A DNA stretch of 64,000 nt from Cetobacterium sp. 8H (GTDB lineage Bacteria > Fusobacteriota > Fusobacteriia > Fusobacteriales > Fusobacteriaceae): assembly GCF_014250675.1 (NCBI RefSeq), contig NZ_JACHTG010000004.1:1675501-1739500 (forward strand), written 5' to 3'. Below the pieces are notes generated by a model. That model was not told the origin of the DNA, made no database searches, and saw only the letters and a program-made list of their open reading frames with translations. The position numbers and the translations under genes were made by a program. Shown here in pieces: positions 35,527-63,169 of the stretch (position 1 is its first letter; each line of letters begins with the position of its first letter).

Positions 35527-36615
35527 CTACATCACCTCTGTAACTTGTTTTACGCTCTGTCCTTCACTAAGCTCATTTACTCCTTTTGTTACAACACTTT
35601 CTCCCTCTATCACTCCCTCTCCTAAAATATTTTTCAAATCATATACTTGAATGTTATTTATCTCTTTTTTCATTACTTTCCCATCTTTTAATACCCATAC
35701 ATACATTTTTTCTTTCTCACCAAATATTGCCTCTAACGGAATTAAATTTCTGCCTTTTATATCATTTTCTAAAGTTATTTTCACTATACCTTCTAAATCT
35801 GATGTTAATACATTCTCCTCTAAAAAATTAAAAACAACAGGATAAGCCACTTCATTTATCCCTTTTACTCTACTTGCAACAAGTTTTTCTAGCATGAACT
35901 TTTTTTCACTTATCAAAAATTCTGCCTTTCTCATTTTTTCTATCTTATCTAAATCTGAATCTGAAACATTTATTTTTACACGATTTTTATCTTGAGATGA
36001 CAGAGTGACTATCGGTATTCCCACTCCTATTATACTTCCCTCATCAAAATATATCTTAGATATATATCCCGAAAATGGCGAAATTAATGTTGTGTCTGAA
36101 AGTTGATTCCTAGCATTTTTTACACCTTCTAAAGCTGCTTCATATTGAGATAAACTAGCTAACTCTGAAGAGGCTGCAGCTTTCATTTTCGATAACGTCT
36201 CTTCATAAATTTTCTTAGATATAGCTTTTTCATTATATAATTTTTTAACTCTTTTAAATTGTGAATTCGCATTTTCAGATATTGCTGTAGCTGCTAGATA
36301 CATATTTTTAGCAGCAGATACTTTTTTTTCTGCCATTTCTAGCTGAACTATATAATCTCTATCATCAATTTTAGCTATTAAATCCCCTTCTCTCACATAA
36401 TCCCCAACATTTAAATCCATTTTTTTTACCGGTCCTGAAACTCTAAAGGCTATTGAACTTTCTTTCTTCGGAATAACTACTCCCAAATATTCATATTCAA
36501 TATTTTCTGGTGTTTTTTGAATTGTCTTTACTACAACCGGTCTAATGATCTCTTTTGGTTTTTTTTCACAAGAAAATAACATAAAACTTAATATTACACA
36601 AATCCATTTTTTCAT
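35527..36615 (-). CDS. RND efflux periplasmic adaptor, lipoprotein
   Basis: A 362-residue membrane-fusion protein. The N-terminal signal ends in a lipobox (FMLFSC, Cys about residue 16), so it is anchored by lipid. A lipoyl-like/biotinyl half (VGDYVREGDLIAKIDDRDY), an alpha-helical hairpin (about 75-160, KKVSAAKNMYLAATA) and the second lipoyl half (DTTLISPFSGYISKIYFDEG in parts) precede beta-barrel and membrane-proximal domains. It overlaps the TolC-like gene by four bases and touches the permease start, forming one pump. Confidence 0.92.
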   Translation of the reverse strand: MKKWICVILSFMLFSCEKKPKEIIRPVVVKTIQKTPENIEYEYLGVVIPKKESSIAFRVSGPVKKMDLNVGDYVREGDLIAKIDDRDYIVQLEMAEKKVSAAKNMYLAATAISENANSQFKRVKKLYNEKAISKKIYEETLSKMKAAASSELASLSQYEAALEGVKNARNQLSDTTLISPFSGYISKIYFDEGSIIGVGIPIVTLSSQDKNRVKINVSDSDLDKIEKMRKAEFLISEKKFMLEKLVASRVKGINEVAYPVVFNFLEENVLTSDLEGIVKITLENDIKGRNLIPLEAIFGEKEKMYVWVLKDGKVMKKEINNIQVYDLKNILGEGVIEGESVVTKGVNELSEGQSVKQVTEVM

Positions 36616-37955
36616 ATTTTTTCCCCCATAGTTCTACTCGGATTAAGTCCCATCGCTACAAAAAGAACTGCCCTACTAACTATATACTCATACTTTGCTT
36701 TTAGTAGTCGTGAATTAGCCTTTTCTCGCTCTGTTGCAACTTCTAAAAATTCAACCTCTCCTATCTCTCCTAATTCGTATTCAACTCTCTTCTGTTTCAA
36801 TCTACCATCTTCAGATTTTAATTTTAATGTATATGTATCCACAATCTCTTCAATTGTTTCTAATTTTTTATATGCTTTTGCGGTCTCAATAATTGTTTTT
36901 ACAATCTCTTTTTCTAATTTCAAATCCCCTATTTCTTTATTTTTAACAGCTTTTTTATATTCATTTATATTTTTAAATCCATTAAACACACTCAAAATTC
37001 CACTCACATTTCCATATAAGAAATCTGGATCGGCTAATATATGATTACTATCATTTATATAACCACCTCCCAAAACAATTTTTGGTAGAAAATTGGTAAT
37101 TGCTATTTTTATCAAATTTGAATCTATCTCTGTCTTTATTTCTGATATTTTTATATTGTCATTACTCTTTAAAGATATCAGAATACACTCCTCTAAACTA
37201 TGCCTCTGTTTTAAATTTATCTCCTCTTCTAAAAGACTCACTTGAGAAAATACATCCACATTTAAGGCTTCTAGTAATTTCATTTTTGCTATTTCTAGCT
37301 CTCTTTCATTTATATTTTTTAAAACTTTTTTATTTTTTTGATAAACTAAAACTTCTTCATATTCCCAAGGAAGAATCCCATCTATTTCAAGTGAAATTTT
37401 TGCTCTTTTTTCCAAAGCATTTGTCATTTGTATATCTTTATCTATGAATTCTTTTTGGGACTCTAAACTTAATACTTGATAAAATTGATTGATCGTATTT
37501 AATTCTATTAACTTTCCACTAAAATCAACTATTTTTTCACTTATATCTTCTCTATTTTTTTTAGCACTATAAATATACCAAAGTGATGGTACAAATATTG
37601 GTATCGTTGCACCTATTGTAAAATTAGAAAACTCTTTATCTATAAAACTTGGCTCTATCTTTCCAATCATCGGAACTTTCATCTCTATAGCAATATCATC
37701 ATTAAGCATCGTATATCCCATCCCTAAATTAATTGCTGGTAAAAAATTTCCAAAAGAAATATTCTTATCTAAAGTAGATATCTCTTTTTCTAATTCTTTT
37801 ATTTTTAAATCTAAATTTCTATTTTTAGCTATATCTATAGCTTTTTCTAAACTTAATACTCCATCATATTTATATGTCATTGGTTTTTTTTCAATATTTT
37901 TATTTGAGCACCCTAGAAATATTGGAATGCATATCAAGATCATTTTTTTCTTCAC
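36612..37955 (-). CDS. TolC-family outer-membrane efflux lipoprotein
   Basis: A 447-residue TolC-like protein with a lipoprotein signal (PIFLGC, Cys about residue 16). Two repeated halves of long amphipathic helices follow, recognisable from LSLEKAIDIAKNRNLDLKI and the second-half equivalent starting HSLEECILISLKSNDNIKI. It is the first gene of the efflux operon. GTG at 37955 is preferred as start because GGGAGGGG lies directly before it; an ATG at 37943 is the alternative. No regulator gene accompanies the operon. Confidence 0.88.
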   Translation of the reverse strand: MKKKMILICIPIFLGCSNKNIEKKPMTYKYDGVLSLEKAIDIAKNRNLDLKIKELEKEISTLDKNISFGNFLPAINLGMGYTMLNDDIAIEMKVPMIGKIEPSFIDKEFSNFTIGATIPIFVPSLWYIYSAKKNREDISEKIVDFSGKLIELNTINQFYQVLSLESQKEFIDKDIQMTNALEKRAKISLEIDGILPWEYEEVLVYQKNKKVLKNINERELEIAKMKLLEALNVDVFSQVSLLEEEINLKQRHSLEECILISLKSNDNIKISEIKTEIDSNLIKIAITNFLPKIVLGGGYINDSNHILADPDFLYGNVSGILSVFNGFKNINEYKKAVKNKEIGDLKLEKEIVKTIIETAKAYKKLETIEEIVDTYTLKLKSEDGRLKQKRVEYELGEIGEVEFLEVATEREKANSRLLKAKYEYIVSRAVLFVAMGLNPSRTMGEKI

Positions 37956-39772: not shown

Positions 39773-40495
39773 TTAAATAAAAAAATTAGAAAATTCACTT
39801 TCTGAAATAGGTTTTCCTATAAAGTATCCTTGAACTAAATCTACATTTATTTTTTTTAAAAATTCTAATTCTTCAGACGTTTCTACTCCCTCAGCAGTTA
39901 TAATATTATTCTTAGTTTTTAAAAAATTAACAATATTTCTATATGTATCTCTCTCTTTTTTTTGATTTATATTTTTTAATAAATTTTTATCAATTTTAAC
40001 ATCCTGGATTTGTGCTTTCATAAAATTTTCTCTATTCGAACTTCCAATTGGAAAATCATCCATTACCACTTTAATACCTAATTTATTAAGTAATAAAATT
40101 GCTGTATTTAAATCGTCGTAATCGAAAGTTCCTCTTTCAACTATTTCAATTATTAAGTTTTCACTTCCTTTTAATAAATGTAATCTCTTTAAAAATTGTT
40201 TTCTTAACATTGTTTTAAACGATATATTTATCGCTAATTTTACATTAGAGTTTTTTAAATATTTTTCTATCTTTTTAAGTACTAAAAAATCTAAAAGATA
40301 TATTTTATCTATTATCTCTAGTTGTTCTATAATCTCTATAGTAGAAATATTATCTAAAGCAAATCTAGATAAAACTTCGTAGCTTACTACTTTATTTTCT
40401 TCTAAGGAATAAACGGGTTGAAAAACTATTGATAATGTTTTTTCTAGTTCTTCTTCGGAAATTTCGCCAAATATTTCTTCTCCAATATTTTTCAT
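39773..40495 (-). CDS. EAL-domain cyclic-di-GMP phosphodiesterase
   Basis: A 240-residue stand-alone EAL domain that should hydrolyse c-di-GMP to pGpG in the cytoplasm. All catalytic and metal-site motifs appear intact: E40 in EVLSR, N90 in AINIS, E117 in IIEIVE, D146-D147 in DDFPIG, K167 in VKIDK, E202 in AEGVE and Q222 in VQGY. There is no sensor, GGDEF or membrane domain. It follows the giant surface-protein gene by 42 bases with no terminator between them, and GGGAGGAAAAAAG precedes its ATG. It is therefore the last gene of the operon led by the c-di-GMP riboswitch. Negative feedback on the signal is the obvious inference. Confidence 0.9.
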   Translation of the reverse strand: MKNIGEEIFGEISEEELEKTLSIVFQPVYSLEENKVVSYEVLSRFALDNISTIEIIEQLEIIDKIYLLDFLVLKKIEKYLKNSNVKLAINISFKTMLRKQFLKRLHLLKGSENLIIEIVERGTFDYDDLNTAILLLNKLGIKVVMDDFPIGSSNRENFMKAQIQDVKIDKNLLKNINQKKERDTYRNIVNFLKTKNNIITAEGVETSEELEFLKKINVDLVQGYFIGKPISESEFSNFFI

Positions 40496-40537: not shown

Positions 40538-43500
40538 TTATTGTATATGAATTAACAATTGAAGTGTTTTTTCATATTGTCCTGGAGGTGTATTTTTTAT
40601 ACTCTCACCATCTATTATTCCTGTAAGTTTTATATTTCTTTTTCTAGAGTCACTACTATCTATATATTCCTCACCAAGCACAAATTTTTTGATTAGTAAA
40701 TTATTAGAATCATCCAAATAAAGAGTACCGTTCTCTGGAATACCTTTATCAATATCTAAAGAATACGTTGCTCTAATGTTTCCATCATTATAATATAACT
40801 CTATATCAGCTTCACCTATAACATCTTTAGGATTACCTATCTTATAAATCTTTCCAAAATTTAAAGCTCCACTTGATGCAACGAAAAAGTTTGGTGTCTT
40901 TATGTTAAATTTATATTTTTCAAGAATCTCATTGTTACTATTTTTATAAATCAGATTGAAACTATCGCTTTGATTATTATCTCTCCAATAGAAAGGATTT
41001 ATAAAAATATCTTCATTTTTATATTTTGTTATATCTATTTGTGTTCCGTTTGTTAAAATTTTTCGTAACATATCAATTAATTGAAATTCGCCTTCATGCG
41101 TTTCAAGAAAAATATTTTCGACACTTTGATTTGGCTTATAAGGAAAATCTCCCTTAATTAAATTTAAATCTAAAACCTCTTTAGGATACGTAATTTCACC
41201 ATCTTTTAATAAAATACCCCTTCCACCAAAAGAATTATATCTAGAACTTATAACTAAATCAATCTCTCCTTCTTTATAAGAATCTTTGTCTTCACTATTA
41301 GTTTTCAAAGCTATATTATACTTTCGTCTAGTATCACCAGATGCTTCAATATGCTCAAGAGAGATATTAAAAGCTTCCTGTCCTTTAATATCTTTTAAAG
41401 ATAATGAGGCATTCAAAGTGTTATAACTTATATTTAAAGTGGCTTCAGCTCCATTTTTAGTCATTTTTATCTCAATAGGTGCTATATTTCCTAAAGAATC
41501 TGTTTCATACTCTGTCATACCAGAAAAAATAGTTCCATCTGATGAAGATATTTTAATTTTATTTTTAAAATTAATTCCATATAAAACACCTTCTTCATAA
41601 ATTGTATTTTCAACACCTTCTGGGATAGTTATAGAATCTTTTTTTAAAACTATTTTTGTATTATTTACATATGTTTTTAAAAAGTTTAGAGCTAAATTCT
41701 TTGTAAAACTATCTTTTTCAATGATTATATCTTTATAATTGAAATATCCAACTCTACTATCAACTGGCACGTTTATATTATCGGTAGGTAGATAAAACTT
41801 GTCTCCAGAACCATTATTATTACCAACTCTTTTTGAGTGTATTAAAGCTATTTTGTTATTATTATCATTAGGATTAGCTCTTAAAACAACCCTATTTCCA
41901 CTTATTTGTCTAGCTTTATCTAAAATATTTTCAGTAAGAGTTAAATAAATTTCAGATTCTACTTTTTCAAGTGTAGAAGAGAGATGTGAGCCTATGATTA
42001 CTATTTTGCTATTACCATCTACTTTTTTATAAGCCTTAGTATTTGTAGTCATTGTATAAATTTCACCTATAAAAGTTCTAAAAGTAAAAATTTCATTATT
42101 CGGATCGTTTTCAAAAGAGTATTTAGTGTAAGCTTTTTGTCTAACTGTTGAATCATCAAATGGTTCGCCTTCAACCTCCCATCCTAAAGCTTCCCTATTA
42201 CCTACAGCGATTGCTGGAAATGCATGAGTCCCATCACTTTGGAAAGGTAGACTTTCTTGTTTTAAACTAACTTTCCCCATGCTTGGATCCACAGGTATGC
42301 TTTTACTATCATTAATTATAATCTCTTTTAAGTTTGATATAGCAGTAAAGTTAGGAAGAGTTAAATTTGTATCTATAGGTGTTCCAGTTATTTCAAACCA
42401 CTCAATTATATTTTCTGTTAAATTAGATGTTTTTATTGTAACAAGAGGTATAGCTCCTTTATAAGAGTACGTTTTACTAGCTTCTATTATTCCAGAAGTT
42501 ACAGTAAATACTAATTTTCCTAACTCATTTGGATTTTGTAGTGATGATTTATCTCCACCAAAACTTAGTTTTCCCTTAATAACACGAGGATTCCAGTCGT
42601 TAGAAGATAATTGAATCTCTTGATCATTTATAGATATTTTAACTCCTATACTATCACTTGTTGATTTTGTAATCTCTTTATCATAGTTCTTTAATTGAAA
42701 ATCTATAAGAGGAACTCTTTGAGTTCCAGTTTCTATTGATTTTACTAATTTTTTATCCGGCGGTATAGGATTAGGTAATGCTAAATAAGTAAGTATATTA
42801 AACGGTTGTATGATCACTCTATATTTATCTCTATGTGTTACTCTTCCAGAAGAATTTTTATGTTCTAATATAAGTATTTCTTCATATTGAATTGTTCTAT
42901 TTAAATCCCAGCTTTCTAAACCAATAGCAACTAAACTATTTTTTCCTTTTTTTAATACATAGGAATACTTCTCTCCATTTTGTATTTGAATATTATCTTT
43001 TAAGGTTCCATCATTATTTGTTGTAATTGTTTTAATAAAATTAGTTACCCCATCTCTTAAAACCTTTACATCAATCTTATGATACTCATTTATTTTTGAA
43101 TAACCTTGCCACTCTGAAGTTACTCCACTTATATTAAGAGACTCAGGATGTTCTAGTGTATATGACATATCATTTGGCAATTTTAAACCATCACTATTTA
43201 TATCAAAACTTCCTTTTAAATTTAAGTCACTTTTTGGAACTGGATTTTTAAATGTTGCAGTGACTATATTCTCTTTTATCTCTTCACCTTTTAAAACATA
43301 AACCTTAGGAAAAGCTATCTCTTCAAGGATATTAGCTGAATTAATTTTGAATCCATTTATATCTCTTTCTCCTTTTATAGCATATATTTTATGAATTTCA
43401 TCCTCAATACTAGAGTACGGTATCAAAACTTTAGCCTCAGATTTGGTTTGTGCATATCTCCAAATATCATCTAAATCTTTTTGAGAGAAATCTATTTTAA

Positions 43501-46000
43501 ATGTCGTTTTAACTTTATTTTTATCTCCTTCATCTAACTTTTTAGTATATCCTCCTACTGCTATATTTCTATTCCCTAATTCACCAATATTATAAATAAA
43601 AAACTTCTCTGTATTTTGATACGGTGTTTCTTTTAAATTTACTGGTATTTTTCTAATGGTTTTTAATCTCTCATCTATGATAAAACTCGCCCAAGGTCTT
43701 CCTTCTATCGGATTAAACGAATGAATTGTAGTCATTTCCCACTTATCCTTAAAATTTAAAGATATCACAGGAAACAGTGTTGAATCTTTTGAAAATTGAG
43801 TCATATCTATCCAATTTTCAGGATATTCAACTACAAAACCATCATTTTCTTTTCTTATTATAATATCTCTTATACTCGATATCACTTCAAACTCCTTAGT
43901 TGAGACAATTGGATCTTCAAGATTGATATTCAAAGTGTAATTTATTCTTTCTAAAGTACTAGGTTCATAATGAATTATATTTAAATTATATATTCCAGCT
44001 TTGGCAACATCAAGTATTTTAATTTCAGGGTATCCGTTTTTATATTGAATCGATATCTTTAATTCATTTGAATCATTATTTATAATCACTTCACTTTGTA
44101 AATTGGAGGTCCCAGCTTCATTTACATTTATTGGTCCTGACTCATTTAACCCAGCTTTTAATTTAAATACACTTGCAAAATGTAATCCTTTTAAATTTCT
44201 TGTATTTGTAGAGTCTAAACTAACTCCTGGAATGGAATTTATTCCTGAATCTATAAAAATAATAGAATTATCTATGTTAAAATCTTTAGTTATATTTAAA
44301 GTCAAATTTTCTTCTATGTGAGTCTTTTTTAAGATTATTTTAGGATAATTTAAATATTCTATTTTTTTATCGGTCACTAAACTAGAATTTAAATCACTGT
44401 TAGATGGTACATAATAATAATTATTCATGCCCTCAGTTTTTCTTTGTCCAACTATATAGGATATTTGCTCATCATAAGCTGAATTTGATTCTAAAACCAC
44501 CTCATACCTATTTAAATTTCTAAATTCATTTAGTAAACTATTCAAATTTAAAGTTATTTTCCCCTTTAGAGAAGTATTCATTTTTTCTCGTTTTGCATCA
44601 CTAAAAGCACCTATAACTGTCTCTGGGTTACCTTTTTTTAATAAAGTCACTCTACCTCCTGTATTTGTTTCAGATGCTGTTGTATCTGAGAAATACATTT
44701 GCATATTTATACTGCTTAAATTACTTGAATTATAAATTGTTTTAACTGCATCCCTTATTTTTTGAGAAGATAAGTTACTCTTGAAACTCCATCCATCTGA
44801 TGAATTAACTATTCCTTGTTTCCCTAAAGCTAGGGTAGGAAAAGGATTACTCTTATCTATTAAATCACTTCCTTCTCCTATTTGTTCCATCCCCAAAGTT
44901 CCAAAATTATACTCAGTATCTATATTTAAGTATTCTGTATCCTCAATAATAATATCGTTTAAAGAAAAAGTTCTATCCATAAGTTGTCTTGAAGGTTGAA
45001 TTTGTTTTTGCGAATTTATTATTAATGTATGGTTCTTTGTTTGCCCTCCTGATATATGAGTAATATGGAAGGTATAGCTTTTGGCTCCTGTAGAATTTAT
45101 TTGTTGCAATCTTAACTTAAGAGATCCATCTCCATTGTACATAAAAACAAAACCTTCGTGATTAGGATCATTAAAATAAATTTGTAATTCTACTGGTTGG
45201 TTTAAAGTTTTTTTGACGCTATTCGAAGAAATAGCATTGCCACTAGCATTAATATAAGATATTTTTATTTCTGTTTCTCCAGAAAAAGAATTTATAAATC
45301 CATCTTCCTTTATAATTCCAACTTCATTCTGAGGGATTTCTGAATTTATTAAGTCGCCTCCTAAATTAAAAGCTAGTGTCTTATTCGTATATGTTTCTAC
45401 TCCATTTTTTAGATTAATTATCACAGTTTTAGTTTCTATTATAGCTTTCTCATTTGCTAGAAATGCTCTCTCGATATTAGCATTATAAACTTTTATAACT
45501 TGATTATTTTCTTGAATAGATATATATAGTTTTTCGGGTTCATTTTCATATGGGATTTTTAAGACTTTCTTTCCTTTATATTCCACTACCTCATAATTCA
45601 TAATTTGTGAAGCACTTTTATTTCTGCCTTTACTTCTTCCATTTACTTCACTACTGCCTTGAACATTTTCACTTACTATTAAATTATATTTTTTTTCTAA
45701 ATCTTCAGCATTTCTAATTCCTTTAAGAGCTTGCTCTCTTTTTTTAGAGAAATCTACATAGATATTTTTATTTTTTCTATCTATATACACCTCTTCTAAA
45801 GGTTCACTTTTTATCTTTGTAACCTCTATATTTAGTTCTGCTGGCTTTGTCCTTCTTGGAAGTGCATCTATTTGCTCTAATTCTCGTGCTATTTTTTCTG
45901 GTAAATCTAGTGAATTATTACTCCCAATAACTCTTGAAAATAGAATTGAAAATATTACAATAAAAAAGAGCTTGTGGAAGCTCTTTAACCTTTTACTCAT
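40538..46000 (-). CDS. Giant secreted modular protein with C-terminal pilin-like domain, putative tip adhesin
   Basis: A 1820-residue protein with a signal peptide (MSKRLKSFHK, then a hydrophobic stretch ending near residue 28). After an Ile/Glu-rich N-terminal region, three divergent modules can be aligned by eye at about residues 347-693, 709-1065 and 1224-1566. Each has an L(K/R)xIII strand, FPxLALG-like motif, Trp, a long beta region and a closing HIxxSG...YxIxI hairpin. The last 115 residues resemble a fimbrial subunit (LNFGKIYKIG, ADIELYYNDG, PPGQYEKTLQLLI). No cysteines were noticed in that domain. The ATG at 46000 is chosen because GGGGAGGG lies inside the longer frame from 46033. By position and layout it is probably a fibre tip adhesin; no named family is asserted. 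Confidence 0.75.
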   Translation of the reverse strand: MSKRLKSFHKLFFIVIFSILFSRVIGSNNSLDLPEKIARELEQIDALPRRTKPAELNIEVTKIKSEPLEEVYIDRKNKNIYVDFSKKREQALKGIRNAEDLEKKYNLIVSENVQGSSEVNGRSKGRNKSASQIMNYEVVEYKGKKVLKIPYENEPEKLYISIQENNQVIKVYNANIERAFLANEKAIIETKTVIINLKNGVETYTNKTLAFNLGGDLINSEIPQNEVGIIKEDGFINSFSGETEIKISYINASGNAISSNSVKKTLNQPVELQIYFNDPNHEGFVFMYNGDGSLKLRLQQINSTGAKSYTFHITHISGGQTKNHTLIINSQKQIQPSRQLMDRTFSLNDIIIEDTEYLNIDTEYNFGTLGMEQIGEGSDLIDKSNPFPTLALGKQGIVNSSDGWSFKSNLSSQKIRDAVKTIYNSSNLSSINMQMYFSDTTASETNTGGRVTLLKKGNPETVIGAFSDAKREKMNTSLKGKITLNLNSLLNEFRNLNRYEVVLESNSAYDEQISYIVGQRKTEGMNNYYYVPSNSDLNSSLVTDKKIEYLNYPKIILKKTHIEENLTLNITKDFNIDNSIIFIDSGINSIPGVSLDSTNTRNLKGLHFASVFKLKAGLNESGPINVNEAGTSNLQSEVIINNDSNELKISIQYKNGYPEIKILDVAKAGIYNLNIIHYEPSTLERINYTLNINLEDPIVSTKEFEVISSIRDIIIRKENDGFVVEYPENWIDMTQFSKDSTLFPVISLNFKDKWEMTTIHSFNPIEGRPWASFIIDERLKTIRKIPVNLKETPYQNTEKFFIYNIGELGNRNIAVGGYTKKLDEGDKNKVKTTFKIDFSQKDLDDIWRYAQTKSEAKVLIPYSSIEDEIHKIYAIKGERDINGFKINSANILEEIAFPKVYVLKGEEIKENIVTATFKNPVPKSDLNLKGSFDINSDGLKLPNDMSYTLEHPESLNISGVTSEWQGYSKINEYHKIDVKVLRDGVTNFIKTITTNNDGTLKDNIQIQNGEKYSYVLKKGKNSLVAIGLESWDLNRTIQYEEILILEHKNSSGRVTHRDKYRVIIQPFNILTYLALPNPIPPDKKLVKSIETGTQRVPLIDFQLKNYDKEITKSTSDSIGVKISINDQEIQLSSNDWNPRVIKGKLSFGGDKSSLQNPNELGKLVFTVTSGIIEASKTYSYKGAIPLVTIKTSNLTENIIEWFEITGTPIDTNLTLPNFTAISNLKEIIINDSKSIPVDPSMGKVSLKQESLPFQSDGTHAFPAIAVGNREALGWEVEGEPFDDSTVRQKAYTKYSFENDPNNEIFTFRTFIGEIYTMTTNTKAYKKVDGNSKIVIIGSHLSSTLEKVESEIYLTLTENILDKARQISGNRVVLRANPNDNNNKIALIHSKRVGNNNGSGDKFYLPTDNINVPVDSRVGYFNYKDIIIEKDSFTKNLALNFLKTYVNNTKIVLKKDSITIPEGVENTIYEEGVLYGINFKNKIKISSSDGTIFSGMTEYETDSLGNIAPIEIKMTKNGAEATLNISYNTLNASLSLKDIKGQEAFNISLEHIEASGDTRRKYNIALKTNSEDKDSYKEGEIDLVISSRYNSFGGRGILLKDGEITYPKEVLDLNLIKGDFPYKPNQSVENIFLETHEGEFQLIDMLRKILTNGTQIDITKYKNEDIFINPFYWRDNNQSDSFNLIYKNSNNEILEKYKFNIKTPNFFVASSGALNFGKIYKIGNPKDVIGEADIELYYNDGNIRATYSLDIDKGIPENGTLYLDDSNNLLIKKFVLGEEYIDSSDSRKRNIKLTGIIDGESIKNTPPGQYEKTLQLLIHIQ

Positions 46001-46016
46001 AGCCCTCCCCCCTCGC

Positions 46017-46544
46017 TTAATTTTGTATCTCATCTGGAGATATTGGTAAAATTTGTGGTTTATTCGCTAAATTGTTATCTTCAGGTGAGGGTTCTACTGG
46101 TTTTGTATTCACATTCACAAGTGAATACACTCCCATAATTATTGGTAATTGACCAACATACTCTCCCTCTATAACCTCAATAGTTTCACCCCTATCTAAC
46201 TCATGTCTGTCTAAAATAGCATAGAACTTAACTAACTCTCTCTCATTTTCAAGCATTATCTCATTTTGTTTTCTATCCATTCCAACTCTTTCAACCTTTA
46301 TCCACTTTTTTCTATTTGTTAGATTTATAAAATTAGGAAACTTAAAGGTTATTCTTTTCCCTAAATCCTTTTTTTTATCAGTTGTATAGATCTCTACATG
46401 AGATACAGCCACAACTTGATTAGGTCCAACCTCTGTTTGATTTATATCTCGAAATCTTAGTGGTTCAACTATTTTTACTTTTATCTCACTAAAACTCATT
46501 GAAAAAATAGTCATAAAGACTATCAGAACTATATTTTTTCTCAT
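46017..46544 (-). CDS. Small secreted protein, possible minor fibre subunit
   Basis: A 175-residue protein with a signal peptide (IVLIVFMTIFSMSFS). The body is beta-rich and ends with a strand pattern typical of fimbrial subunits, GEYVGQLPIIMGVY, then a Pro-rich tail ANKPQILPISPDEIQN. It lies between the other small secreted protein (2 bases) and the giant protein gene (16 bases), so it is co-expressed. I infer a minor pilin or adaptor between shaft and tip. The tail resembles the N-terminal ILPLLPED of its neighbour, suggesting a shared interaction motif. Confidence 0.65.
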   Translation of the reverse strand: MRKNIVLIVFMTIFSMSFSEIKVKIVEPLRFRDINQTEVGPNQVVAVSHVEIYTTDKKKDLGKRITFKFPNFINLTNRKKWIKVERVGMDRKQNEIMLENERELVKFYAILDRHELDRGETIEVIEGEYVGQLPIIMGVYSLVNVNTKPVEPSPEDNNLANKPQILPISPDEIQN

Positions 46545-46546
46545 GA

Positions 46547-47110
46547 CTATCTCCTCTCGTTTAATTCCACTGTTATATAAACCTTTTTCTTGTGTATCCC
46601 TTCTCTAGTTATATTTTTTCCATCAATAAAGAGAGTATTATCAGCAACTAACTTTTTATTTATATATTTTGGAGAGTATATAAATGTGTCTAAAGTCCCA
46701 TCCCCATCTATGTCTATCTCTGTTTCACTATAATTTAAAATATAGAAGTTTTGCTTATCAGGCTCTTTATTCATCTCTAGTTCAAATGGTATTGTTAGCT
46801 GCTCATCATCTATAATAAGTGCTTTTATATCTACATCTGTTATAATCTCTAGAGGTACAACTGCTTTAACTTTCGTATCTAAATGTATTGTATATGAATC
46901 TTCTAACTTCCATTTTACCTCTTCGCCAATTCCATCTGTTGTAGACTCTTTACTAGGTAAAGCTGGAATAAGAGGTATAGCTGGTAAAAGATTTGGCTGG
47001 CTCTCATAGTCCTCTGGTAAAAGAGGCAAGATTGTCGGTATATGAACCAACTCACTCGCCAATATATTACAACTTATAAGGGCTGGAATTAGAACTAATA
47101 ACTTTTTCAT
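46547..47110 (-). CDS. Small secreted protein with Pro-rich N-terminus and calcium-loop-like motif
   Basis: A 187-residue protein with a signal peptide ending near ILAS. A Pro/Leu-rich stretch (PTILPLLPED and LLPAIPLIPALP, about residues 25-52) follows. The beta-rich remainder carries DIDGDGTLDT (about residues 132-141), a dockerin/EF-hand-like calcium loop. It overlaps the 3' end of the usher-like gene by 44 bases, so translation is coupled. I do not recognise a family; an accessory or minor-subunit role in the surface structure is inferred from context only. Confidence 0.65.
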   Translation of the reverse strand: MKKLLVLIPALISCNILASELVHIPTILPLLPEDYESQPNLLPAIPLIPALPSKESTTDGIGEEVKWKLEDSYTIHLDTKVKAVVPLEIITDVDIKALIIDDEQLTIPFELEMNKEPDKQNFYILNYSETEIDIDGDGTLDTFIYSPKYINKKLVADNTLFIDGKNITREGIHKKKVYITVELNERR

Positions 47111-49724
47111 ACTTTCCTCCCTCGCTTAAGAATATCTGTTTAAGTGTTAATCTATCTCTATCTAAGTGAATAATAAATCTATTCTCTCTATCATCATAGT
47201 ACCCTAACACTACGTTTTCAGCGATTTTTTTTGCTTTATTATCCACACCTATATATTTAATTTGTAACATATACTTTCTGGCATATAAGCCACTAACTTC
47301 AAATGTTCCATCACTTTCTGGATTTAAATACTCTATTAGCTTTCCTTTTTCATCTAAAACTTTTATAAGTATATTTTCAAATAGACCCTCTTTTTCTTTA
47401 CAGTCTAAATTTAAACTTTTATCAACTTGAATCTCACCAACTATAGTAACCATAGGTTTTATAGGAATGTGAGCTGTTACTGTTCCAACTTGTTGTCCTA
47501 GTATTTTTATCTTTGTATCTCCAATTGTATATGATGGTTTTCTAATTATTGGTTTCATATCATAAACTATTTTGTTTGGAACTCCAAAGAACATAGCCTC
47601 TCCATTTTCATCTGTATCTATTTCTTGATCTCCAATTTTTACAGCTACATAGTCCACTCTTTCCTCATCATCCTCCATAACTCCGTTGTCATTTTTATCT
47701 AGAAAAGTTACAACTTTAACTCTAGTACTATCAATACTTTCTAATGGTTTTTTAATATTTTTCAAATCCACAACTCTATTTATACCAGCAGAGTATCTTT
47801 GAGCACCAGTTTCATCAAAGTTAACTTCACCTCTAAACCAGTTATCATAATCTAAAGTAAATCTAAATGTAAATTTCTCTTTGTACGAATCTGAATATCC
47901 AAACTCCAACGAGTAATCAAGTATGCTAAAGATATTTTTATTCGATAGTCTTAACGTTGTTTCTAAATCCTTTCCATCCTCTAGCCAGTAGTTTGTAAGT
48001 TGTACGTTATATTTTTTTAATCCATTGTAATACATATTAACTTCATAGCTATCCTCTTGATTTAAAGATTTGTTGTAATCTAGAGAAAGTAAAAAATCTT
48101 TCCAACCTTTGCTAATATTTAATCCAACACTTTCATCATTATTATCATTTTGCTCTATATTATATTTTGTCTTACTCCACTCATAGTTAATTTGAAAAAC
48201 TCCTGTTGGATTGTATGTTATAGAGTAGCTTTCATCTGATTTTTCATCAAAATATTTTCCATAGTGTGCTCTATCAACTATATATCTAAAATCTTTTATA
48301 TCAATTTGAAACGTTCCATCATATGAATATCTATCTTTGTTACTAACTCCCTCGTCATTAACTACACTTGTATTTAGTGCTCGCTCTGTTCCAAGAACTA
48401 AAGTATATGGAAATCTATAAATATAGTTACTATATACAACCTCTCCTCTAATATGTTCCAAATACTCAATTCGATCATCTCCAACATCCTCAGGTTCATG
48501 AACATATCCTAATCCTAAAGTTAGGTTTTGAGTGATACCATGATACAGATTAGCGTTTATTGAGTATTTATCATATTGATCCACTTCACGGAAAGATATA
48601 TCATATTCTGTCTCTCCTTTGTTTTGTTGGAAGTAGTTCGCAGCGGTATCTATATCTATTGTATATATTCTTCCATCTGGTTGATAAACTCTTAAAGTGT
48701 AACGTCTATTCTCTTGAATCTCTGAGTTATCAAACTCCACTGTTCCATCAACAGCGTCTTTTACTTCAATTGGAAACCCTAAGTATAGGAGTTCTACTTT
48801 ACTACCTATTGGTACTGTTTCTTGAATCACATAGTTTTTACCTTTAATGTAGTAACCACGCTCTTTTCTAAAACTTGCTGCCCACTCCCTTGCTCCTCCA
48901 CTACCATTATTTTCAAATTCTAAAGAATGATTCATATATATATCAGGATAATATAAACTTGTATTTCCTAGTTCATTGTTTCTCACATCATAAGCTGCTG
49001 TAAACTCCCCGTAAAGTAGTGGTCCTTGATATTCTAAATTTCCTGTCCAATCAGTCTCCATTTTTCTATCATTAGAATCTTTTCCAGCTTTATTTAAAAC
49101 TCCTTGAAAGTCAAAACGCATGTATCCCACATCAAATAAAGTACGCTCACTTGTAAACATAAGTTCTCCAGCATTCTGGGCATCAATTAATCCATCTTTA
49201 ACATTTGCTAAATATGTCTCTATCTCTGCTGACGTTTCAAAGCTAAGTCTCATTGAAATACTAGAGCTCTCTTGGTCTATATGTAGTTCTCTTAAAAATA
49301 ACTCCTTAAACTCTTCACTCTCTACAAAGAAATCACTTTGCTCAACTATAACATAGGAATCACTAGGTTTTAGTTCAATCTCTTTAACATCTGTTCCTAA
49401 AGTTGCTTTTAAAATCTCACTTTGTATTGAATAGTCTTTAAATCCTATTGCATTAAATAGATTTATAGCAGGGAGGTATATTTTATTGTCTTGAATTATA
49501 ATTGGATATACATCACTAACTTTTACACCATTAACTTTTAAATTGAAAAAATCTTCTCTTTCTTGAACTCCTTGGAGTTCATTAGAAAAAATTTCATACT
49601 CTTCTTCTGTTATCATATTTAAACGCTTTAATTCATTTAGTTCTTCTAAAGTAAATTCTGATGAATATGTTAGTAACGAAAAACATATAAATGCTAGTAG
49701 ATATATGTTTAATCTTAATTTCAA
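47067..49724 (-). CDS. Outer-membrane usher-like beta-barrel protein
   Basis: An 885-residue secreted protein. After the signal peptide, an N-terminal domain (about 55-150) contains NGVKVSDVYPIIIQDNKIYL-like strands. A long run of alternating aromatic beta strands (about 160-660, for example GNLEYQGPLLYGEFTAAYDV) forms a large barrel, interrupted by a plug-like segment. The C-terminus has two beta-sandwich domains: one with the calcium-like FLDKNDNGVMEDDEE (from about 666), and a carboxypeptidase-regulatory-like domain (762-830). This is the layout of CS1/alternate-type ushers (CfaC/CooC), without named-family proof. TTG at 49724 is preferred since GGGGGGTG precedes it; the ATG at 49739 has no ribosome site. 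Confidence 0.72.
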   Translation of the reverse strand: MKLRLNIYLLAFICFSLLTYSSEFTLEELNELKRLNMITEEEYEIFSNELQGVQEREDFFNLKVNGVKVSDVYPIIIQDNKIYLPAINLFNAIGFKDYSIQSEILKATLGTDVKEIELKPSDSYVIVEQSDFFVESEEFKELFLRELHIDQESSSISMRLSFETSAEIETYLANVKDGLIDAQNAGELMFTSERTLFDVGYMRFDFQGVLNKAGKDSNDRKMETDWTGNLEYQGPLLYGEFTAAYDVRNNELGNTSLYYPDIYMNHSLEFENNGSGGAREWAASFRKERGYYIKGKNYVIQETVPIGSKVELLYLGFPIEVKDAVDGTVEFDNSEIQENRRYTLRVYQPDGRIYTIDIDTAANYFQQNKGETEYDISFREVDQYDKYSINANLYHGITQNLTLGLGYVHEPEDVGDDRIEYLEHIRGEVVYSNYIYRFPYTLVLGTERALNTSVVNDEGVSNKDRYSYDGTFQIDIKDFRYIVDRAHYGKYFDEKSDESYSITYNPTGVFQINYEWSKTKYNIEQNDNNDESVGLNISKGWKDFLLSLDYNKSLNQEDSYEVNMYYNGLKKYNVQLTNYWLEDGKDLETTLRLSNKNIFSILDYSLEFGYSDSYKEKFTFRFTLDYDNWFRGEVNFDETGAQRYSAGINRVVDLKNIKKPLESIDSTRVKVVTFLDKNDNGVMEDDEERVDYVAVKIGDQEIDTDENGEAMFFGVPNKIVYDMKPIIRKPSYTIGDTKIKILGQQVGTVTAHIPIKPMVTIVGEIQVDKSLNLDCKEKEGLFENILIKVLDEKGKLIEYLNPESDGTFEVSGLYARKYMLQIKYIGVDNKAKKIAENVVLGYYDDRENRFIIHLDRDRLTLKQIFLSEGGKYEKVISSNSSPYKL

Positions 49725-49745
49725 GATTACACCCCCCATTTTTAG

Positions 49746-50474
49746 CTATTTTATTTTTTCTTCATATAAGACTTTTTTGCTTAGAGAATCTCTAATTATC
49801 AATGTATTATACTTGGAAAAATTTTTCATTAAATCTTTATCATGTTTTACTAATTTTTGGTTTAGTTTTGATGCTTCAATCTTTTCATTTTTTAGTAGCC
49901 TTAGATTACCAATATAAGCTGTATTTTCCCCCTTATTTTCAGCTAAATAGAAATCTAATGTTCCTCTTCTTTCACCAATATTAGCTATTAATCCATAAAA
50001 ATTAAGATTATTTTCTTTTAGAGCAACTGAAAAATCTTTCAAAAATATTTTAGGATTTAAATCTCCAATATATCCTGCTAAATCCATTTTTAAATGTGTT
50101 AAAATTTGAACTGTAGAATTTTCTTTTGAATTTAATTTAGGTAATGCTATCTCCTTTACACCAACTGTAACTAGATATTCACCTTTTGGTACACCTTTTG
50201 GAGCTTTTACAAAAACTTTAAATTTTCCACTACGTCCTGGTTTTAAAGTAACTGTTGTAGGATATATCTCTATCCAATTTTTCATAGATTTTTCTATCTC
50301 TTCATCTGTTAGATAAAGTTGATACTTTAAGGTGTTTTGAGTTGGATTATACAAAGTGTATTCTTGAACCTCTCCTTTACCATCTATTTTTTTATCAAAG
50401 GTAACAGGATTTATATTTATATATCCAAAGGTATTTACTACTGAAAGGAAAAAAAGAATAAAAATGTTTTTCAT
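49746..50474 (-). CDS. Periplasmic fimbrial chaperone-like protein B
   Basis: A 242-residue secreted protein with a short signal peptide (IFILFFLSVVNTFG). The first domain is Ig-like: VTFDKKIDGKGEVQEYTLYN, WIEIYPTTVTLKPGRSGKFK and KAPKGVPKGEYLVTVGVKE follow the strand order of pilus chaperones, and a second beta domain begins near residue 135. It is clearly homologous to the protein at 51222-51947 (same motifs at the same places), so the system has two chaperones. It lies after the pilin terminator and 21 bases before the usher-like gene. Confidence 0.75.
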   Translation of the reverse strand: MKNIFILFFLSVVNTFGYININPVTFDKKIDGKGEVQEYTLYNPTQNTLKYQLYLTDEEIEKSMKNWIEIYPTTVTLKPGRSGKFKVFVKAPKGVPKGEYLVTVGVKEIALPKLNSKENSTVQILTHLKMDLAGYIGDLNPKIFLKDFSVALKENNLNFYGLIANIGERRGTLDFYLAENKGENTAYIGNLRLLKNEKIEASKLNQKLVKHDKDLMKNFSKYNTLIIRDSLSKKVLYEEKIK

Positions 50475-50514
50475 AAAATTGCCCCCGCATTTTAATTTAA
50501 TATATAATTCTCTT

Positions 50515-50542
50515 AAAAAAAGAGAGAAGAGAGCTTCTCTCT
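50515..50542 (-). terminator. Internal terminator directly after the pilin-like gene
   Basis: AGAGAGAAG (50521-50529) pairs fully with CTTCTCTCT (50534-50542) over a four-base loop. On the minus strand T6 follows. The operon continues beyond it, so it likely lowers expression of chaperone B, usher and tip relative to the shaft subunit. Confidence 0.82.
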
Positions 50543-50563
50543 AATTTTAAAAGAATTATTTTG

Positions 50564-51160
50564 TTATTTTGTAAAAGTTCCGTTTGCTGAATAAGTTACT
50601 GATAATGTTGGCATAGCTCCAGTAACTTTGTTATCATAAGCTCCTGCTTCTGCTACTGGAAGTGATTCTGCTGCTATTGTAGATGTTATTGTTCCTAAAT
50701 GCTCTCCAGATTTTAGTCCTGCTATGTATTCATTCGATTCTACTAGATTTACTCCATTTACAAGTCTTAAAGTTGATTTTATAGTCTTTGTTCCTCCAAC
50801 TTTTGTTAAAGTTGTAGTTGTATTATCTAAATTAATAGTAACCATATGAGAATTTTCCCCCGTACTAGTTATATCCTTATCAACGTCTCCATCAGTGCCA
50901 GTCACTTTAACCTTAAAATTTTTAGCTATTACTGAATCTCCTGTTGCAGTTCCACCAACAATTTTATGATCCAATAGTAGTTCATCTAATATTGTCCCTG
51001 CTTCATCTGTTATAACTAGTGCACTAGCTGGTTTTACAACCTCTGCTATAACTCTTACTGGTACTGATGCTGTTTTAGCTCCTTCTCCTATTATAGTTCC
51101 TGGGTTTGCTGCAAATGCTGTCATTGATAATGTCATGATTCCGAATAAAACTTTTTTCAT
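50564..51160 (-). CDS. Major pilin-like subunit
   Basis: A 198-residue secreted protein rich in Thr, Val, Ala and Gly, without cysteine. The signal peptide ends at AFA (MKKVLFGIMTLSMTAFA). The mature start has an alternating strand VPVRVIAEVVKPASALVI followed by TDEAGTILDELLLDH, and the end has HLGTITSTIAAE and MPTLSVTYSANGTF. This resembles CS1-type (alternate chaperone-usher) pilins by pattern. The ATG at 51160 is used because GGGAGGG lies in the longer frame starting at 51175. It lies between the two chaperone genes and is followed by a terminator, as expected for the abundant subunit. Confidence 0.75.
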   Translation of the reverse strand: MKKVLFGIMTLSMTAFAANPGTIIGEGAKTASVPVRVIAEVVKPASALVITDEAGTILDELLLDHKIVGGTATGDSVIAKNFKVKVTGTDGDVDKDITSTGENSHMVTINLDNTTTTLTKVGGTKTIKSTLRLVNGVNLVESNEYIAGLKSGEHLGTITSTIAAESLPVAEAGAYDNKVTGAMPTLSVTYSANGTFTK

Positions 51161-51221
51161 TTTGTTCCCTCCCATGTATTTTTTTATTTATGTTCCCTAA
51201 TATATATCAAGTTTTTTGATA

Positions 51222-51947
51222 TTAAAGTTTTTTCTTAGTTATTTCCTCATGTGTTGATGAATCTCTAAGTCTAATTCCAGATATATCGCTCTTTTTCATT
51301 TTTTTCATAGTTAGAACTACATCCTGTGTTGCTTCAATTCCTATTCTTCCTTTTTCCAATGTTTCATATCCATCATTATTACCAATGATATCTATGTTAT
51401 ACCAAACACCTCTTTTAGAAGTATTGTTCTTTACTTTAAAAGATATTACTGTTTCTTTCTCTTTATTTTCACTTATTTTTAAGGTGCTTATTTCTAATTT
51501 TGGTTTTAAATCTCCTACATAGGCTACAATTTCTAAATTAACATTTAATGCCATACGCGCTGCTGCTGCAACATTTTTCCCATCATCTTTTGCTAACTCT
51601 GGTACAGGAACTGATTTAAAGTTTAAAAATGTTGAGTATTCTCCCTCAGGAGTACCTTTAGGTGCTTTTATATAAACTTTTAAAGTGCTCTGACTTCTTG
51701 GTTTAATTGTTATTATTTTAGGACTAAATTCAATCCATTTATCCATGTGCCCTTTATATTCACCTGTTCCAGGTAGTGGTGTTATTTTAAATCGTTGTGT
51801 TTTTGTGCTGTTGTTATACATGATAAACTCTTGGTATCCCCCACCAGAATCTATACGTTTCTCAAAAAATGTTGGTGTAATATGAAATGAAAATGTTGTA
51901 AAAAAAACTAATAAAAACATAGAAACGAATAGGCCATTCCTTTTCAT
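51222..51947 (-). CDS. Periplasmic fimbrial chaperone-like protein A
   Basis: First gene after the c-di-GMP riboswitch. The 241-residue secreted protein (signal LFVSMFLLVFFTTFS) has the same Ig-like plan as chaperone B: TFFEKRIDSGGGYQEFIMYN, WIEFSPKIITIKPRSQSTLK and KAPKGTPEGEYSTFLNFKSV, then a second domain with SFKVKNNTSKRGVWYN. Such proteins donate a strand to fold pilin subunits and deliver them to the usher. Pairing it with the adjacent pilin-like gene is inference. AAAGGGGGATTAAA precedes the ATG; a small AT-rich hairpin lies after the stop. Confidence 0.75.
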   Translation of the reverse strand: MKRNGLFVSMFLLVFFTTFSFHITPTFFEKRIDSGGGYQEFIMYNNSTKTQRFKITPLPGTGEYKGHMDKWIEFSPKIITIKPRSQSTLKVYIKAPKGTPEGEYSTFLNFKSVPVPELAKDDGKNVAAAARMALNVNLEIVAYVGDLKPKLEISTLKISENKEKETVISFKVKNNTSKRGVWYNIDIIGNNDGYETLEKGRIGIEATQDVVLTMKKMKKSDISGIRLRDSSTHEEITKKKL

Positions 51948-51993: not shown

Positions 51994-52046
51994 AAATAAA
52001 AAAGCACTCAATTATTACAAAATAAATTTTGTAATAAATCGAGTGC
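51994..52046 (-). terminator. Riboswitch expression-platform terminator
   Basis: On the minus strand GCACTC plus an AT-rich arm containing TTATTACAAAA pairs with its complement, ending GAGTGC, for a stem of roughly 19 pairs followed by TTTTTTATTT. Its 5' arm begins at the very 3' edge of the aptamer (shared bases 52045-52046), the arrangement expected for ligand-controlled termination. Confidence 0.85.
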
Positions 52047-52125
52047 AACTGGCTGCCATTTTAAAGGCCCTTTAGCTTTGCGTCATATAGTTTCCTATAT
52101 TTTGCCATTATTATATTATCGAAAT
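52045..52125 (-). promoter_or_regulatory. Cyclic-di-GMP class I (GEMM-I) riboswitch aptamer
   Basis: Read on the minus strand, the leader has the conserved order of GEMM-I: ATGGCAAA (GGCAAA at 52101-52106); a hairpin ATATAG-GAAA-CTATAT with the canonical GNRA loop (52085-52100); the invariant GACGCAAAGC (52075-52084); a short second stem with GGGCCT; then GGCAGCCAGTTGC (52045-52057), the tetraloop-receptor and closing side. It lies about 100-180 bases before the chaperone A start and is followed at once by a terminator. Its target is the fibre operon ending in an EAL phosphodiesterase gene. The aptamer call is strong; whether ligand turns expression on or off is not proven. Confidence 0.92.
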
Positions 52126-52976: not shown

Positions 52977-54029
52977 TCATTTTATTATTTTTGCTTCTCC
53001 TATAAATATTTCATCCATATAAACTTCTACTTTTTCTGTAGAAAACTCACTGTAAGCAACATCTACAATATTCCCCTCAATCTCCTTCAAAACACTACTA
53101 TTATAAACAGAGTTTTTAACTCTAACTCCACAATTATAAACTTTTCTTTTATACCAAGTAAAAAAATAATTTAATTTCTTTTCAAATTCACTTTTTTCTA
53201 CTTTTTCTTCTGAGGAAATAAATAGATATCTTTTTAAAAAACAGATTATCTCTTCTATTTCTTTGGGTTTTTTTAGATAAAACTCTTTTAATATATCTGT
53301 ATCCATATACCCTAAATAATTTATTATCTCTCTATCTGGGTCTTCTTGAATTAAATTTATCTTTGTTTCAAAGTAAATTTTCCTTAAGATTGCTTTTGTA
53401 ACTCCAGCAATTTTTGTGTCTATTGATATATTTTTAGGATATTCTCCTTCTATTATAATACTTTCTCTTATAAAATTAAATAATTTTGTTAAATCTCTTG
53501 AATTTTCCTCAAAGATAAAATTAATTATCTTATAATTTTCCTTGTTATAATATATTGTTAAATAATATATCTTATTTCTATTATTAAAGAAAGGAATTGG
53601 AATTGATTTTTGTATAATAGCATATTCATATATTTTATCTTTTTTTATGGAATTTATTGAATTTCCTCTAATATTTTCATCTAGATTATTAATAATTCTA
53701 AAAAATGTAGGATAACTTATCATCGAATTGTAGTTTATTAGTGTAGTTTTGGCCTTGTCATAGAGTTTTGTTATGGGTAAATTATGATACTCTTTATATA
53801 AATTTTTTAAATGGAATAGCACTTCATCATTTATTTTTTTAAAGCTATTCTTATCGGATCTTTCTTTTTTTTCTAATCCATCTACTCCATAATCCTTATA
53901 TTGACTAACCCATCTTTTCAAGGTTGCATAAGAGATTTCTGTCTCTTTTTCTATATCTTTGAGCTTTTTTTCTTTTTTGAAAAAGGGCTCAATTATCTTA
54001 TATTTATTATTATTTTCTTTATTTTTCAA
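52977..54029 (-). CDS. Degenerate Mu-type transposase-like DNA-binding protein
   Basis: About 350 residues. The N-terminus is a helix-turn-helix (DIEKETEISYATLKRWVSQY, then KDYGVDGLEKKER) as in MuA/IS481-type transposases. The middle follows the order of an integrase core, but the acidic catalytic residues look mostly lost: the first position reads TIYYNKENYKI, the second ISIDTKIAG keeps an Asp, and the Glu is not evident. The C-terminal 54 residues match the Mu transposase C-terminal barrel pattern (YNCGVRVKNSVYNSS and YMDEIFIGEAKI). No terminal repeats or target duplications were seen. TTG at 54029 is the preferred start; TTG 54050 would be nearly leaderless after TATAAT at 54064-54069. Possibly domesticated as a regulator. 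Confidence 0.62.
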   Translation of the reverse strand: MKNKENNNKYKIIEPFFKKEKKLKDIEKETEISYATLKRWVSQYKDYGVDGLEKKERSDKNSFKKINDEVLFHLKNLYKEYHNLPITKLYDKAKTTLINYNSMISYPTFFRIINNLDENIRGNSINSIKKDKIYEYAIIQKSIPIPFFNNRNKIYYLTIYYNKENYKIINFIFEENSRDLTKLFNFIRESIIIEGEYPKNISIDTKIAGVTKAILRKIYFETKINLIQEDPDREIINYLGYMDTDILKEFYLKKPKEIEEIICFLKRYLFISSEEKVEKSEFEKKLNYFFTWYKRKVYNCGVRVKNSVYNSSVLKEIEGNIVDVAYSEFSTEKVEVYMDEIFIGEAKIIK

Positions 54030-54117
54030 AATAAAACACACCCTTTTCAAATTATTTTGTTAAATTATAACACATTTGATGCGTAAAAAAAAGGCTCATT
54101 TATTTTGATAATTTTCT

Positions 54118-63039: not shown

Positions 63040-63057
63040 TTATTAAAATTTAATTTA

Positions 63058-63141
63058 AAACTACTAGGGGTGCCTATAATATAGGCTGAGATTTTACCCT
63101 TAGAACCTGATCTAGTTAATACTAGCGTAGGGAAGTAGTTT
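63058..63141 (+). promoter_or_regulatory. Thiamine pyrophosphate (THI-box) riboswitch
   Basis: The conserved TPP aptamer elements occur in order: ACTAGGGGTGCC (P1/P2 start), GGCTGAGA (63083-63090), ACCCTTAGAACCTGATCTAG and TAGCGTAGGGAAGTAG closing P1. It precedes tenA by about 95 bases and is followed by a terminator, so TPP should stop transcription of tenA and the ABC genes after it. Confidence 0.95.
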
Positions 63142-63169
63142 ATATCTACACTTTTTTTGTGTATATATT

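Follow-up and report, generated by a model that had tools for sequence, protein, structure and literature searches.

Does a run of seven genes for secreted proteins in Cetobacterium sp. 8H encode a chaperone-usher adhesive fibre, and where among such systems would it belong? Cetobacterium is a major genus of the fish gut, and the chaperone-usher route has been described only in other phyla. Archaic chaperone-usher fibres are on record from Proteobacteria, Cyanobacteria and Deinococcus-Thermus (PMC4654587); fibres of the classical and alternative types are known only from beta- and gamma-Proteobacteria (PMC9452303). A literature search, with subscription journals mostly outside its reach, returned no paper linking chaperone-usher systems to Fusobacteriota and no mention of the domain family DUF4402, which recurs below; the papers that mention both chaperone-usher and Fusobacterium are, by title, reviews or unrelated works. 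From sequence and predicted structures, we consider it very probable that the operon encodes such a fibre. The operon is real, conserved and of a divergent chaperone-usher type. A first-pass annotation had proposed a divergent system of this type, perhaps a new clade, and was right in substance, as judged from the fold and homology of the usher, the PapD-type chaperones, the pilin fold and the pilin-like end of the giant protein. The present analysis adds the proof of homology, a riboswitch, the distribution across Fusobacteriaceae and the separate position of their ushers.

Organization and conservation of the operon

The window, a stretch of 64,000 nucleotides from a 2.57-Mb genome, carries the seven open reading frames on the minus strand; they extend from 51947 to 40538, and neighbours overlap or are separated by small gaps. 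Chaperone A comes first, followed by the pilin, chaperone B, the usher, P0005, P0006 and the giant protein. All seven consecutive genes for secreted proteins called earlier from the letters were recovered in place and on one strand. The features of the region are:

52041..52116, minus strand: c-di-GMP-I riboswitch aptamer (RF01051), found by cmscan in the operon leader
52004..52046, minus strand: intrinsic terminator hairpin and T run, from sequence, inverted repeat and fold energy
51222..51947, minus strand: chaperone A (P0001, 241 aa), predicted PapD-type
50564..51160, minus strand: predicted major pilin (P0002), from AlphaFold model, Foldseek and VIA
49746..50474, minus strand: chaperone B (P0003, 242 aa), predicted PapD-type, 27% identity to chaperone A
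47067..49724 (alternative start 49739), minus strand: predicted usher (P0004, 885 aa), from model, fold matches and homology chain
48648..48854 (residues about 291-359), minus strand: predicted plug domain of the usher, from DSSP of the model and profile matches to the FaeD and CsuD plugs
46547..47110, minus strand: small secreted protein P0005 (187 aa), conserved, without family match
46017..46544, minus strand: small secreted protein P0006 (175 aa), conserved alongside P0005, without convincing family match
40538..46000, minus strand: giant secreted protein (P0007; length about 1820 aa, counted from the likely start), encoded last in the operon
40541..40966, minus strand: predicted C-terminal pilin-like (DUF4402-like) domain of the giant protein, from DUF4402 in the C-termini of relatives
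39773..40495, minus strand: EAL-domain protein (P0008), PF00563 with E 1.1e-40

The order from chaperone A to the large protein is repeated, not always exactly, at about 20 loci of related Fusobacteriaceae genomes, so the seven-gene arrangement is not due to chance. In three close relatives, identity to the window is 92% for the usher, 90-92% for P0005, 88-90% for P0006, 86-87% for chaperone B and 69-74% for chaperone A, and falls to 43-49% for the pilin and 37-39% for the giant protein. The nearest named relative, with an usher 92% identical, is a Cetobacterium MAG. This is a pattern of conserved predicted machinery and fast-changing putative surface parts. A search for an invertible promoter turned up none. 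Upstream of the operon lies a 357-aa open reading frame (52977-54050, minus strand, TTG start) with a helix-turn-helix and transposase/integrase-like sequence, which may be a decayed mobile element. Elsewhere in the window, a HlyD-like lipoprotein and a TolC-like outer-membrane lipoprotein (35527-37955, minus strand) probably belong to an efflux set.

The 885-residue protein is predicted to be an usher

The AlphaFold model of P0004 (20 sequences; pLDDT 78.7, pTM 0.55) shows by DSSP six strands in residues 201-287, an inserted domain at about 291-359, eighteen strands up to residue 653 and two small beta domains thereafter. In all, the modelled barrel comprises 24 strands, and the plug lies between the sixth and the seventh. 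Likewise, PapC and FimD have a 24-strand barrel with the plug after strand 6. The first-pass annotation had described an 885-residue barrel with a plug-like region and two C-terminal beta-sandwiches, to be checked by structure prediction, and a plugged 24-strand barrel with two such domains is what was predicted. In a Foldseek search of the PDB, FimD and PapC occupy the first 16 ranks (E 1.4e-24 to 1.6e-10), and the next rank is a different protein (E 1e-8). With VIA, ushers fill ranks 1 to 15, with Z 14.4-17.2 and alignments reaching residue 860; just below, from Z 13.7 downward, follow other barrels, many of them unrelated. As these stand so close behind, the usher claim is carried by the Foldseek ranking and the sequence chain. 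Solved ushers align to P0004 only from residue 191 in VIA, leaving residues 1-190 unaligned to solved usher N-domains; a small alpha/beta domain is predicted at 57-160, and its homologue occurs in a Polaromonas protein.

No usher was recovered when P0004 itself was searched against Pfam, NCBIfam and PDB sequences. Neither Pfam Usher nor PapC_N matched it, PF00577 (Pfam Usher) had no match anywhere in the window's genome, and tblastn of P0004 against plasmids was likewise without a match. The missing Pfam match is bridged by intermediate relatives. Of 98 Fusobacteriota genomes, 42 have members found by a Fusobacteriaceae usher profile; nearly all the matches are full-length, and all fall within one bacterial family. 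Pfam Usher, too, matches at some of the sites. For instance, the usher of a related locus, L089, reaches 49.1 bits with Pfam Usher (E 5.5e-13; cut-off 27.1), and the profile of the window's clade aligns with it over its full length (744 columns, E 5.1e-28). A profile of the related ushers moreover matched the plug of FaeD (E 1.2e-6) and that of CsuD (E 2e-4). In other profile comparisons, the plug of FimD reached only E 0.021, and single EcpC, EcpB and FimC sequences gave nothing useful. On model and sequence chain together, P0004 is classed as an usher.

Two predicted PapD-type chaperones

Two related chaperone-like proteins had been noted at first reading, and this is confirmed by their identity of 27% and by profile matches to the PapD_N family and to CsuC. 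PapD_N matches chaperone A by itself with E 1e-3, chaperone B with E 0.018, and 10 of the 23 members of the chaperone family with a best E of 5.4e-7. The profile of this family matches a PapD chaperone of Polaromonas (E 3.3e-10) that is annotated as a fimbrial chaperone and itself scores above the PapD_N cut-off. In the PDB, the sole fimbrial chaperone matched was CsuC (E 0.006, profile positions 30-199). The lengths of 241 and 242 residues fit two domains, and the fold was examined by sequence profiles; by these, chaperones A and B are classed as PapD-type. A correlation of gene distances, run to pair the chaperones with subunits, did not discriminate.

Weak matches to WxLIP_PGBD, a domain of Gram-positive WxL-interacting proteins, were found in 6 of the 23 family members (best 6.6e-4) and possibly reflect a shared Ig-like ancestor. 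In some related loci, a chaperone B of a single domain (136-142 aa) lies near the adhesin gene and ends close to the strand donated to the subunit: L049 2788-3216 and 16237-16665, L050 5847-6266, L051 13117-13530 and L053 7606-8016. PapD-type chaperones of one domain would be unusual. An archaic operon on a Palleronia plasmid has an annotated chaperone of only 143 aa (L096 3317-3748), possibly truncated or one-domain.

The major pilin

P0002, the start of which is probably at 51160, has a mature form of 181 residues without cysteine. A cysteine-free, pilin-like subunit had been noted from the sequence, and the AlphaFold model of the mature form (pLDDT 82, pTM 0.79) does match chaperone-usher pilins. 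The best Foldseek match is self-complemented FimA (E 2.7e-5), followed by CfaB, CS17 and CooA. With VIA, CsuA/B and FimA come first at modest Z scores of 8.5-8.0, nearly all of the fifty rows are chaperone-usher subunits, and archaic and classical subunits are fitted equally well. The N-terminal strand SVPVRVIAEV (residues 15-24) shows an alternation like that of a donor strand. As modelled, P0002 is a pilin with the incomplete Ig fold and an N-terminal donor strand. The CS1 Pfam family matched none of 24 pilins, and the spore-coat-U family (SCPU) matched none of the window's subunits.

Small secreted proteins and the giant protein

P0005, P0006 and the giant protein begin with signal-like peptides, in agreement with the earlier description of two small secreted proteins and a giant one. 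P0005 is found in nearly all loci at the same position (mean pairwise identity 57%) and P0006 is conserved with it (52%); no other small gene in the set is conserved as well. P0005 matched no family and P0006 none convincingly, and no profile match connects either to the pilins. A match between the pilin and P0005 profiles was rejected as it covered the signal peptide only, and one between the end of the giant protein and P0006 (E 0.015) was not relied on. P0005 is a probable minor subunit and P0006 a probable minor (adaptor) subunit.

The giant protein probably starts at 46000, as its relatives begin with MSKRLKSF or MSKKLKSF. It is the fastest-evolving gene; its counterparts are mostly 820-2129 aa long, with one of 392 aa. 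An internal repeat pairs residues 435-755 with 1309-1634, a module of about 320 residues (z 9.8). Of 15 homologous C-termini, 5 carry DUF4402, the best with E 8e-9, but the family did not match the C-terminus of the window's own giant protein; one relative's adhesin end has a weak SCPU match (E 0.015). The pilin-like end seen at first reading thus carries the DUF4402 signature in relatives, and by homology the C-terminus is classed as a DUF4402-like pilin domain. Cu_amine_oxidN1 and similar weak Pfam matches were taken as chance or generic folds. The long N-terminal part and the pilin-like end correspond to the two-domain plan of a tip adhesin, which is the probable role of P0007.

The giant protein dominates the operon, and one might therefore ask whether the barrel is a dedicated secretion pore for it alone, with no fibre being made. 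Some ushers do secrete non-pilin cargo, as with CupB3 and CupB5. However, a pilin with the fold and donor strand of a chaperone-usher major subunit stands beside the chaperones in nearly all loci, and we regard such a pore as highly improbable. A P-usher is cited in PMC4793230. The fibre remains the preferred interpretation.

A c-di-GMP riboswitch in the operon leader

A c-di-GMP-I riboswitch (RF01051; 60.5 bits at a cut-off of 35, E 2.4e-9) and a terminator directly precede the first gene, chaperone A, which starts at 51947. The terminator hairpin has about 19 pairs followed by a T run, shares 6 nt with the 3′ end of the aptamer, contains a perfect inverted repeat (52012-52037) and folds with −33.8 kcal/mol (z −4.3). 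Both elements were absent from the first-pass finding and are new here. Riboswitches of the same class stand before chaperone A in L037, L038, L039, L040, L043, L044, L045 and L055, and another heads the third usher locus of the window's genome. P0008, the EAL-domain protein encoded downstream of the operon on the same strand, is by its family match a probable c-di-GMP phosphodiesterase, and EAL genes also lie near the operons of L037, L041 and L044. Together, EAL gene and riboswitch suggest a c-di-GMP circuit. A TPP riboswitch (89.7 bits) lies elsewhere in the window, at 63056-63150 on the plus strand.

Distribution and position of the ushers

Usher-bearing Fusobacteriota genomes, 42 in number, usually have ushers at several loci, and that of the window has two further ones. 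The second (L006 4979-10197; G000:C4 about 457-462 kb) comprises a chaperone, a 171-aa pilin with several cysteines, proteins of 281 and 114 aa, an usher, a TlpA-like thioredoxin, which may serve the disulphides of this pilin, and a barrel-like protein of 1185 aa. The third (L005 9478-18308; G000:C4 about 204-213 kb) adjoins an rRNA operon and, beside its riboswitch, has genes for a solute-binding and HD-GYP-like protein, a peptide-binding protein, a DUF4402 subunit, an usher, a MORN-like protein and a chaperone.

In a tree of 23 ushers with, for reference, two each of classical and archaic ushers and four alternative ones, with long branches and thin sampling, all Fusobacteriaceae ushers group together (99/98), and two proteobacterial ushers that lack such an annotation join them (100/99). 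On the other side stand the three known groups, classical, archaic and alternative (100/99). The alternative ushers form a clade of their own (100/99) that leaves out the window's group; an assignment to the CS1/alternate type, as made at first reading, is therefore not upheld. An ordinary alternative (alpha/CS1-type) system that has merely diverged in sequence would agree with the CFA/I order chaperone-pilin-usher-adhesin at L089, the smallest relative, with the two chaperones of the E. coli common pilus (ECP) and with the matches of the pilin model to CfaB, CS17 and CooA. The position of the alternative clade speaks against it, as do the EcpC sequence, which gave no profile match where FaeD and CsuD did, and the equally good fit of the pilin to archaic and classical subunits. 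We thus consider it improbable.

Placing the window's group with the classical ushers (FimD/FaeD) was rejected (p-AU 0.013). A position as sister to the archaic ushers was not (p-AU 0.143), and a deep archaic (sigma) member would come from the sole group known beyond beta- and gamma-Proteobacteria. CsuC as the sole chaperone-usher chaperone matched in the PDB, the DUF4402 matches and the one weak SCPU match in an adhesin end point the same way. Nevertheless, the best tree puts CsuD and the Palleronia archaic usher with the classical ushers (99/97), away from the window's group, and the operon contains no SCPU subunit. We regard a deep archaic membership as rather unlikely, though less so than an alternative one. 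The lineage of the window's usher appears to be separate from all three known clades. With branches this long and sampling this thin, a fourth lineage is the preferred reading but falls short of demonstration. More broadly, the chances seem evenly balanced that Fusobacteriaceae and some unannotated proteobacterial operons form a fourth major chaperone-usher lineage that Pfam Usher fails to detect and that has giant tip adhesins, partly one-domain chaperones and often direct control by a c-di-GMP riboswitch.

Proposed assembly and significance

In the proposed mechanism, the subunits would reach the periplasm by Sec, where chaperones A and B would complete their fold by donor-strand complementation and deliver them to the usher. 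The giant protein would be recruited first and come to lie at the fibre tip, P0006 and P0005 would join it to the rod, and the pilin would polymerise through the usher pore by donor-strand exchange. Expression would be set by c-di-GMP through the riboswitch, which probably acts as an ON switch by preventing the terminator, a direction deduced from the overlap of aptamer and terminator and from the usual role of c-di-GMP. The EAL protein would close a feedback loop.

With this operon, Cetobacterium would have a candidate attachment organelle that is open to experiment and to which c-di-GMP is directly connected. The predicted pore protein forms its own branch, and the Fusobacteriaceae ushers can serve as outgroups for usher evolution. 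They also show that a whole set of ushers escapes the standard usher profile.

Comparison with known chaperone-usher systems

Type 1 and P pili resemble the window's system in the barrel, plug and C-terminal domains of the usher, which match FimD and PapC. For type 1 pili, the likeness extends to the pilin model, which matches self-complemented FimA, and to gene order: P0005, P0006 and the putative adhesin follow the usher as fimF, fimG and fimH do, P0005 and P0006 standing where FimF and FimG stand. In contrast to these systems, P0004 has no match to Pfam Usher and membership of the classical clade is rejected, and the operon has two chaperones, a giant putative adhesin, a cysteine-free pilin and predicted riboswitch control. 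Of the alternative systems, CFA/I shares its gene order with the relative L089 and ECP its two chaperones with the window's operon, but the window's usher falls outside the alpha clade and no CS1 family match was found. The archaic Csu pili of A. baumannii provide the nearest solved chaperone by profile (CsuC), a matched plug (CsuD) and, tied with FimA, the top of the pilin's VIA list (CsuA/B), whereas the usher does not group with CsuD in the tree and the subunits are not SCPU.

An operon on plasmid 2 of Polaromonas sp. JS666 encodes, in order, a DUF4402 protein, a hypothetical protein, a second DUF4402 protein, a PapD chaperone and a 'carboxypeptidase-like regulatory' protein. It differs in having one chaperone, DUF4402 subunits in place of the window's pilin, no giant protein and an usher not annotated as such. 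Nevertheless, its 896-aa protein can be aligned with the usher profiles from end to end (E 2e-20 and 6.8e-9), and its chaperone matches the chaperone profile (E 3.3e-10). Operons of Polaromonas (L073 1241-6582) and Pseudoalteromonas (L074 2587-7158) have usher-like proteins for which the annotation says no more than carboxypeptidase-like or SdrD B-like, and these operons look like overlooked chaperone-usher systems.
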